From Polyangiaceae bacterium (GTDB taxonomy: Bacteria; Myxococcota_A; Polyangia; Polyangiales; Polyangiaceae): DNA of 64,000 nucleotides. Numbering within the stretch: position 1 is the first letter of the stretch; the number at the start of each line of letters is the position of its first letter. The notes under the pieces were generated by a model. It saw only the letters and a program-made list of their open reading frames with translations. It did no database searches and was not told where the DNA came from. The DNA is taken from contig WQZB01000002.1 of NCBI GenBank assembly GCA_009780955.1, positions 62,001 through 126,000 of the forward strand, in the 5' to 3' direction. This document shows positions 56,115 through 64,000 of the stretch, in pieces. A program made the translations under genes and the position numbers.

Positions 56115-57236
56115 CTAGACGAGCCGCGTAAAAAACCAGGCTGCGCCAACCACTGCCACGACGACAGACAAGAGGCGCATGCCCCGCTCTCCAAACCACG
56201 GGCGTTTTTTCGTGACGAAGACGAGCGCTGTTAGCGCCGCAATGACGACGACTTGCCCTGTCTCGACGCCGAGATTGAATGCCACGAGCGGCAGCAGGAC
56301 AGAATTGCGATCGAGCCCAATCGACCGAAGTGCGCTTGCAAACCCGAAACCATGCAGAAGACCGAACGGCAACGCAATTCGCCAGCGCTTCGCGGCATTC
56401 GGCGCGAACAGGTTCTCGACCCCTACGTACGCGATCGACAGGGCAATCATTGGTTCGACGAATCGTGCGCTTGGCACGAGGGCGCCCGTAGCCGCGAGAG
56501 CGAGTGTCAAACTATGGCCGATCGTGAACGCTGTCACGACAGAGAGCAGATCGCGTACGCGCGTTGATGCGAGTACGAGACCAAAGAGAAAGAGCAGGTG
56601 ATCGTAGCCTGTCAGGATATGGTCAACGCCCATCCAGAAGAACGCCGTGGCTCGCGCTGCGGGTATGGGTGCTCGTGCCGGTGTCGATGCAGAGCGCGAT
56701 GATGATGCGTCGTCGGCAACTGCGCTTGGTGCATCCACCGTGAACGTGGTCTGCCCCTTGACGACCACGGCATCATGGGTGGTCTTTCCGATCGCGCGCA
56801 CCACATGCCTGTGGCCGGCCGGCCAATCGTTCATGAACGATACATCGACCGTGAACGTCCGGACACGCTTGGGGCAGTCGTAGCGTCCACGAACAGAGAA
56901 TCCATCGGTGTCGACGAGCGCCGCATCGGTCAGCACGCCAGGGCACACGGCTCCGTCGCCGGTAACGATCACGCGTTCCACGATCTGGCGCCTTAGTCCT
57001 TGAGGGCCGCCCTCGGCCAATTGGACCTCCATCGCCGTGATGTGCCCGTCATGATTCGCGTCCAGCGCGGGCAAGAGCGATGCGATCTCGCTGCGTGCAA
57101 ACGTTGCCTTCATGACGAGCGAGCTCTGGTGAGCGGTGTACTCCGCGCTCGACAGACCGATCGCATGCGCAAGGGCCCGGGCCGAAAAAGCGATCACGAA
57201 AGCGAGCGTTGCAAGCGGGTAGGGGCGTATGGCCAT
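56115..57236 (-). CDS. HupE/UreJ-type membrane protein whose start codon lies in a palindrome
   Basis: 373 residues. Signal peptide MAIRPYPLATLAFVIAFSAR..ALAHA; the first six residues and the ATG are provided by the REP-like palindrome 57219-57246, which also gives AGGGG just upstream. The periplasmic part (25-190) contains an EF-hand-like loop DANHDGHITAME (59-70). C-terminal six-helix HupE/UreJ_2 domain: GVDHILTGYDHLLFLFGLVL, TIGHSLTLALAATG, VEPMIALSIAYVGVENL, LLHGFGFA. The family is associated with metal (nickel) transfer, but many members, including long ones like this, have unknown roles. Confidence 0.82.
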   Translation of the reverse strand: MAIRPYPLATLAFVIAFSARALAHAIGLSSAEYTAHQSSLVMKATFARSEIASLLPALDANHDGHITAMEVQLAEGGPQGLRRQIVERVIVTGDGAVCPGVLTDAALVDTDGFSVRGRYDCPKRVRTFTVDVSFMNDWPAGHRHVVRAIGKTTHDAVVVKGQTTFTVDAPSAVADDASSSRSASTPARAPIPAARATAFFWMGVDHILTGYDHLLFLFGLVLASTRVRDLLSVVTAFTIGHSLTLALAATGALVPSARFVEPMIALSIAYVGVENLFAPNAAKRWRIALPFGLLHGFGFASALRSIGLDRNSVLLPLVAFNLGVETGQVVVIAALTALVFVTKKRPWFGERGMRLLSVVVAVVGAAWFFTRLV

Positions 57237-57246
57237 ACGCCCCTAC
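57219..57246. repeat. REP-like perfect palindrome supplying the HupE-like start codon
   Basis: 28-bp perfect palindrome, half GTAGGGGCGTATGG. Same sequence at 62443-62470 and 63378-63405. On the minus strand its centre gives ATG GCC ATA CGC CCC TAC, the first six codons of the HupE-like gene. Confidence 0.9.
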
Positions 57247-57279: not shown

Positions 57280-57369
57280 GTAGGGGCGCGATTCATCGCG
57301 CCCTCGGATCGACCAATGGCATGGATTCGAGAATGCCGCGGTTGGGCGCCATGAATGGCGCCCAACTAC
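57280..57369. repeat. Composite of two REP-like palindromes
   Basis: First palindrome 57280-57307 (GTAGGGGCGCGATTC...), a spacer containing ATGGATTCGAGAATGCCGCGGT, and the second palindrome 57341-57369 (GGGCGCCATGAATGGCGCCC). The same order with a similar spacer occurs at 6796-6878. Lies between the divergent HupE-like and pseudokinase genes, so it is part of their promoter region. Confidence 0.8.
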
Positions 57370-62442: not shown

Positions 62443-62508
62443 GTAGGGGCGTATGGCCATACGCCCCTACAACGCATTCCGTAGGGGCGCCATTCATGGC
62501 GCCCGACC
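62443..62508. repeat. Pair of REP-like palindromes between convergent genes
   Basis: 62443-62470 is the 28-bp perfect palindrome (half GTAGGGGCGTATGG); 62481-62508 is the GGGCGCCATTCATGGCGCCC type in the opposite orientation to 57341. Lies after the PglZ-like stop and before the end of the gene at 62519. Confidence 0.85.
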
Positions 62509-62963: not shown

Positions 62964-64000
62964 ATGAGCTCTAGTGCTTTACTTGCGCGTTTCGTTCAGC
63001 ACAAAAACAACGAAAAACCGGCGATTGTCGATGGTGTTGGCGCACACGCCTACTCCAAGGTTGTCCTCGATGCAGGCCGGGTTGCGCTCGCACTGCTCGA
63101 AGGCCACGAACGCACAGGCTCGCTCCAAGGCGAGCGCGTCGCGATTCTCGTTTCGCCAGGGGCGGCGTTCGTAGCAGCATTCTTCGGCGTGCTGCTCGCG
63201 GGCGGGTGCGTGGTGGTTCTCTCTCCGCTGCACCCAGCGCCGGAAACGCGCTACTTCTGCGATGATGCTGGGGTAAAAACCGTTCTTGTTTCGGGCGATC
63301 TATCGGCTTTTGCCACGCCGCTCGCGAGCGCATTTCGCGTGCGCGACGTGGCATCAATTCTTGCGCAAATACAAGGAGTAGGGGCGTATGGCCATACGCC
63401 CCTACCTGATTTCGTGACAACGCAGGCCCGGGCCATCTCCGAAGACAAGCCCGCTCTGCAGCTTTACACGAGCGGCACGACGGGCAAGCCCAAAGGCGCC
63501 GTGATCACCCATGCCAATCTTGCCGTGCAGCAAAAGCTCGTTGGCAGCGCATGGGGGTTTTCCGCACAAGACACATTGCTTCATGTTCTGCCGCTTCACC
63601 ACATGCACGGGCTGTGCATCGCGCTGCTCACCGCGCTTGGCAGCGGAGCGACCGTTCGCATGATGCCGTTCGACGCCGCCCGTGTGTGGGAGGCGATGGA
63701 TCACGCCACGGTTTTCATGGCCGTCCCTGCGATGTACCACCGACTGTTTCTCGCCTTCGACGCAGCGGACGAGCATGCACGCAGCCACTTTGCCCAGTCG
63801 GCCTCGCGGCTGCGGCTTGCCACCAGTGGCAGCGCTGCGCTGCCCGTCACGCTCGCCGAGCGTTGGCGCGCGCTCACGAACGTGATCCCGCTCGAGCGCT
63901 TCGGCATGACCGAGATTGGCGTTGGCCTATCCAACCGTCTTTTGGGCGATCGTTATCCTGGCAGCGTTGGCTTCCCCCTGCCCACCGTTGAAACGCGAAT
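62964..64000 (+). CDS. matB: Malonyl-CoA synthetase-like acyl-CoA ligase (3' end outside window)
   Basis: Open from ATG 62964 (GGGAG 8-12 bp upstream) to the right edge, 345 codons, no stop. AMP-forming ligase: P-loop LYTSGTTGKPKGAVITH, LPLHHMHGLCIALLTAL, FMAVPAMYHRLF, ATSGSAALP, ERFGMTEIGVGLSN and PGSVGFPLP, the pattern of MatB/ACSF3 enzymes that activate malonate to malonyl-CoA. A REP-like palindrome at 63378-63405 is read through in frame as GVGAYGHTPL, in the variable stretch before the P-loop. Confidence 0.88.
   Translation, partial: MSSSALLARFVQHKNNEKPAIVDGVGAHAYSKVVLDAGRVALALLEGHERTGSLQGERVAILVSPGAAFVAAFFGVLLAGGCVVVLSPLHPAPETRYFCDDAGVKTVLVSGDLSAFATPLASAFRVRDVASILAQIQGVGAYGHTPLPDFVTTQARAISEDKPALQLYTSGTTGKPKGAVITHANLAVQQKLVGSAWGFSAQDTLLHVLPLHHMHGLCIALLTALGSGATVRMMPFDAARVWEAMDHATVFMAVPAMYHRLFLAFDAADEHARSHFAQSASRLRLATSGSAALPVTLAERWRALTNVIPLERFGMTEIGVGLSNRLLGDRYPGSVGFPLPTVETR
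63378..63405. repeat. REP-like perfect palindrome in frame inside a coding sequence
   Basis: Third copy of the 28-bp palindrome (half GTAGGGGCGTATGG), identical to 57219-57246 and 62443-62470. It lies about 415 bp into the acyl-CoA ligase gene. Phase is such that the TAG inside the repeat is split between codons and the reading stays open. Confidence 0.92.

Follow-up and report, generated by a model that had tools for sequence, protein, structure and literature searches.

The locus described here raises the question of how a short repeated palindrome can come to lie in frame within a malonyl-CoA synthetase-like gene and be retained there. The palindrome, GTAGGGGCGTATGGCCATACGCCCCTAC, is 28 bp long, perfect, and carries GTAG at both ends; it occupies positions 63378..63405 (strand undesignated) of the window, the 64,000-nucleotide stretch of DNA that was analyzed. 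The surrounding gene runs on the plus strand from 62964 to the window end at 64000 and extends past it. When the contig was read beyond the window, the ORF, which starts at 62964 (or 62907), was found to encode 530 residues from the 62964 start with no internal stop. The product matched the AMP-binding family PF00501, and its nearest models and structures in domain and profile searches were malonyl-CoA synthases. The malonyl-CoA synthase model NF005702 gave 188 bits against a curated cut-off of 558 with the part of the protein that lies in the window, which is not full length. Read in triplets from its first base (GTA first, CTA ninth, then a single C), the palindrome encodes VGAYGHTPL(P), about 20 residues upstream of the P-loop YTSGTTGKPKG. 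This agrees with the sequence-only reading, which had placed the copy inside an ORF and just before the ATP-binding loop.

Comparison with homologues bore out the claim that this is an in-frame insertion of 9 to 10 residues relative to MatB-type proteins. The MatB-like protein is 64-70% identical to those of its congeners across nearly the whole length, and its loop between ETRYF and YTSG has 74 residues, whereas each of the four closest congeners has exactly 65. The loop, which precedes the ATP-binding motif, is thus longer by a net 9 residues (27 nt); across the homologues measured, its length varies from 55 to 79 residues. Since only 27 nt were gained, one base of the 28-bp insertion is unaccounted for. 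The variable length of the loop would be compatible with native residues that resemble the repeat by chance or convergence, but the 28 nt are identical to many copies in the genome, with none expected in the window by chance, and pairwise alignments showed the peptide VGAYGHTPL to be absent from all aligned MatB-like homologues, those of the same genus included. Distant homologues with the same residues and no palindrome were looked for as a counterexample, and none was present among those aligned. A native origin is thus virtually excluded. A mis-joining of reads at the repeat is scarcely more credible: the assembly is a draft of 112 contigs and the sequence is repeated, but the repeat is only 28 bp long and, in the genes compared, a single homologue matches both flanks, in the correct order and reading frame.

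The exact 28-mer occurs at three sites in the window (57219, 62443, and 63378), with 0 expected from 100 shuffles. As the earlier reading had stated, two identical copies lie between genes: those at 57219..57246 and 62443..62470, neither given a strand, are exact matches outside long ORFs, the latter between two convergent ORFs. The copy at 62443 forms a dimer with a partner REP unit, GTAGGGGCGCCATTCATGGCGCCC, which follows it after 10 bp (62481..62504, plus strand), and near the 57219 copy the string GTAGGGGCG (57280..57288, plus strand) may be the start of another partner unit. This string has 12 sites in the 64-kb window compared with 0.22 expected; among the matches listed for the bare string in the literature, the titles looked unrelated.

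At the level of the genome, the 28-mer belongs to a GTAG-type REP family. The palindrome pattern has 80 copies in this genome and was found in none of the 11 same-genus or 24 same-family genomes searched. In a whole-genome pattern search, the wider unit GTAGGGGCG-N10-CGCCC gave 261 and 264 matches on the two strands of this genome, 12 and 12 in the congener G010, whose genome is similarly small, and no match in the five remaining congeners searched. The string GTAGGGGC occurred 523 times in 2.05 Mb compared with 77-112 for comparable 8-mers, an excess that is inflated to an unknown degree by the partial selection of these stretches around known copies (72 distinct copies lie inside them); most of its occurrences belong to a small number of hairpin cores. 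With a joining distance of 70 bp, 193 REP clusters were counted, dimers with different cores among them; the selection of the stretches also means that these counts are not those of a random sample, and only the 56 clusters of at least three units are certain groups, because symmetric palindromes count as two units. The 28-mer fits the definition of a GTAG REP, a palindrome of 20-40 bp tagged at one end with GTAG, and the high copy number, the variants of the hairpin core, and the arrangement in dimers or groups are likewise those of GTAG REPs. The flanks of 56 copies, viewed by eye, had no evident target-site duplication, a trait of the MITEs of DDE transposons. The description of the element as REP-like is therefore upheld by the GTAG tag, the clusters, and the RAYT-like genes of this genome discussed below.

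The MatB-like gene is one of several in-frame hosts. Of the 193 clusters, 13 are in frame within an ORF that shows coding signal to either side of the cluster. Coding was called here with a simple model of codon log-likelihoods, trained on this genome, rather than with a gene caller. The same model gives a coding share of about 81% for the sampled DNA, and so low a number of in-frame clusters is what would be expected if most genic insertions were purged. Domain searches assigned the hosts, besides the MatB-like protein, to riboflavin synthase, OpcA-like, GltD-like, and LuxE-like proteins, PP2C, polysaccharide deacetylase, TruB, IGPS/TrpC, TamB, a metallophosphatase, an M1 peptidase, and an ORF with MqnA-like and MqnC-like domains. 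Congener comparisons cover five of the 13, and alignments of the riboflavin synthase, LuxE-like, OpcA-like, and GltD-like proteins, as of the MatB-like one, showed congeners without the insert; the homologues for three proteins were retrieved with a single concatenated query. The MatB-like gene is longer by a net 27 nt, the riboflavin synthase gene by about 24, and the LuxE-like gene by 15. A pure 28-bp insertion would give none of these values, which points to the loss or alteration of some bases at the target.

It might be argued from the position of the insertion near a catalytic motif that the MatB-like gene is a decaying pseudogene, which stayed in frame by luck. Against this stand its full-length, stop-free frame, the congener identity over nearly its whole length, and the 12 other in-frame clusters, one of them in a riboflavin synthase that is the single match in this genome, and we consider such decay very improbable.

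Three ORFs with unusual REP arrangements are worth mentioning. In L166 (4653-7013), the MqnA-like and MqnC-like domains form one ORF with a REP dimer at their junction, which may reflect the fusion of two genes through REP insertion. In L162 (6939-7877), the N-terminal segment of indole-3-glycerol-phosphate synthase is separated from the remaining domain by a REP cluster that spans about 48 residues. A PD-(D/E)XK nuclease ORF of 1125 codons (L158, 2593-5967) contains two in-frame copies of the 28-mer.

We then consider what could have mobilized the element. A search with PF01797 indicated no RAYT in this genome, a result that proved to be a false negative because NF047646 found three RAYT-like loci, on C60, C12, and C56, the last of which is split between frames. 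The C60 gene (L323, 1135-1695) and the C12 gene (L325, 1420-2259, minus strand) contain in-frame REPs, with different cores in the two genes, in the loop that links the HUH motif to the Tyr motif; both proteins keep these motifs and have REP-encoded residues between them. The 28-mer lies upstream of the C60 gene, ending 22 nt before its start codon. The RAYT-like protein of G010 (L346, C44) also has a REP-encoded stretch in the HUH-Tyr loop, which is absent from the G002 homologue L331. RAYT-like genes bordered by these REPs and with both motifs are present, but their scores of 58.5 and 49.5 bits fall short of the curated NF047646 cut-off of 80. Matches to the RAYT family were also found in relatives without the 28-mer REP, so the presence of a RAYT alone does not explain the expansion. 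TnpAREP enzymes are known to bind and cleave GTAG REPs (PMC8266576). Given this published cleavage and the REP-bordered genes with HUH and Tyr motifs, RAYT-mediated spread is the best inference rather than a demonstration, and we regard the RAYT as the likely mobilizing enzyme.

Spread by gene conversion, template switching, hairpin repair, or another transposase, with the RAYT-like genes incidental, would accord with the scores under the curated cut-off and with the apparent loss of target bases at insertion points. PF01797 results for 20 other genomes carrying the 28-mer were mixed, and the four with no match over the cut-off might also be taken in its favor, though this model missed genes here as well. 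Such a route is nevertheless unlikely, because the GTAG tag, the hairpin, the clustered units, and the RAYT-like genes bordered by REPs are all as expected of the known REP/RAYT system (PMC3733652, PMC8266576). No RAYT gene flanked by the 28-mer REP was present among the loci inspected with PF01797 in the other carrier genomes.

We suggest that the 28-mer is a small palindromic element, non-autonomous and probably dependent for its copying on the RAYT-like genes (HUH, REP-associated tyrosine transposase) of this genome. It would have landed repeatedly, with intergenic copies kept freely. A copy in a gene would have been kept only if it altered the length by a net number of bases divisible by three, was read in a phase free of TAG, and fell in a protein loop able to take additional residues. 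For the MatB-like gene, the outcome would be the 9 extra residues before the P-loop, which are presumably translated and neutral. Taken as a whole, the account of a mobile GTAG REP retained in frame in genes is very probably correct, the RAYT step by itself being somewhat less secure.

The sequence-only reading had cited the elements of Rickettsia as the known precedent for such repeats, and they are not the only one. Di Nocera et al. (2013) reported REPs, including GTAG REPs, inside ORFs of several non-rickettsial species (such as Opitutus terrae, Thauera, and Thioalkalivibrio); the host genes included TruB, DNA polymerase I, and uvrA, and encoded inserts of 20-30 amino acids were common for intragenic GTAG REPs (PMC3733652). 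The family described here resembles those GTAG REPs in its tagged palindrome, high copy number, clusters, mostly intergenic location with some copies in frame in conserved genes, probable association with RAYT genes, and target types (TruB and DNA polymerase I). It differs in that the 28-mer has GTAG at both ends and is found identical across several phyla. Its GGGCG-N10-CGCCC hairpin set was unmatched to the numbered GTAG families, as these are given in the text of PMC3733652 without its figures. With the Rickettsia palindromic elements (RPEs), it shares the insertion of palindromes in frame into ORFs of unrelated proteins (Ogata et al., as cited in PMC3733652 and PMC10969869). It is unlike them in sequence class and host: RPE-4 and RPE-6 are CGTC tagged, RPE-1 is long, and the first-described RPEs are about 150 bp, whereas the element here is 28 bp and GTAG tagged. 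As in REPtrons, an HUH/Tyr transposase-like gene appears to be bordered by cognate REPs, but the RAYT-like genes here also hold in-frame REPs in the HUH-Tyr loop (PMC2817692, PMC8266576); a literature search that was not thorough found no description of in-frame REPs inside RAYT genes. What is new is this REP family, its host, and its identity across phyla, intragenic GTAG REPs being already known. The findings add a further lineage to those with in-frame REP insertion, and the evidence is unusually direct: congeneric homologues are free of the insert, the genome itself has RAYT-like genes, and the hosts include conserved biosynthetic genes. The insertions also provide a natural experiment on the kinds of protein loop that can accept new peptides, and the sharing of a single short, unchanged palindrome by distant phyla calls for an explanation.

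The exact 28-mer is present in records assigned to many phyla, mostly MAGs. Some of these copies lie inside long ORFs with Pfam matches to NuoL-like and GalT-like proteins, DNA polymerase I (PolA), and carbamoyl-phosphate synthase (CarB), a finding that concerns presence within the ORF. The symmetry of the palindrome had been said to give the same peptide from both strands, and the riboflavin synthase copy, on the minus strand of its contig, again encodes VGAYGHTPL. It had also been held that the phase in use avoids the internal TAG, which is true of VGAYGHTPL but not of this phase alone: two of the three are open (VGAYGHTPL and xRGVWPYAPT), and the third meets TAG. Among copies of the 28-mer or near-28-mers judged to lie in real genes, in this genome and other phyla, the VGAYGHTPL phase was used in the MatB-like, riboflavin synthase, LuxE-like, PP2C, deacetylase, OpcA-like, and TruB genes and in L046, L062, L083, and L084, and the other open phase in three (GltD-like, L051, and L067), a bias that is only suggestive because the genes were picked by inspection. 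That this palindrome, letter-identical across phyla, is shaped to give one mild peptide from either strand and hence acts as a mobile element insertable into proteins, with VGAYGHTPL favored over the other open phase as the better-tolerated peptide, seems to us rather doubtful.

Two further arrangements were seen in other genomes. In a Falkowbacteria MAG (L046, 3-1853), phosphoribosyltransferase, NUDIX, and nucleoside phosphorylase domains occur in one ORF, with the 28-mer between the last two. Y1_Tnp matches were found in long ORFs of 637-1256 codons (L306, L318, L320, and L321) from genomes labeled Anaerolineae, Thermoflexus, or Chloroflexi.
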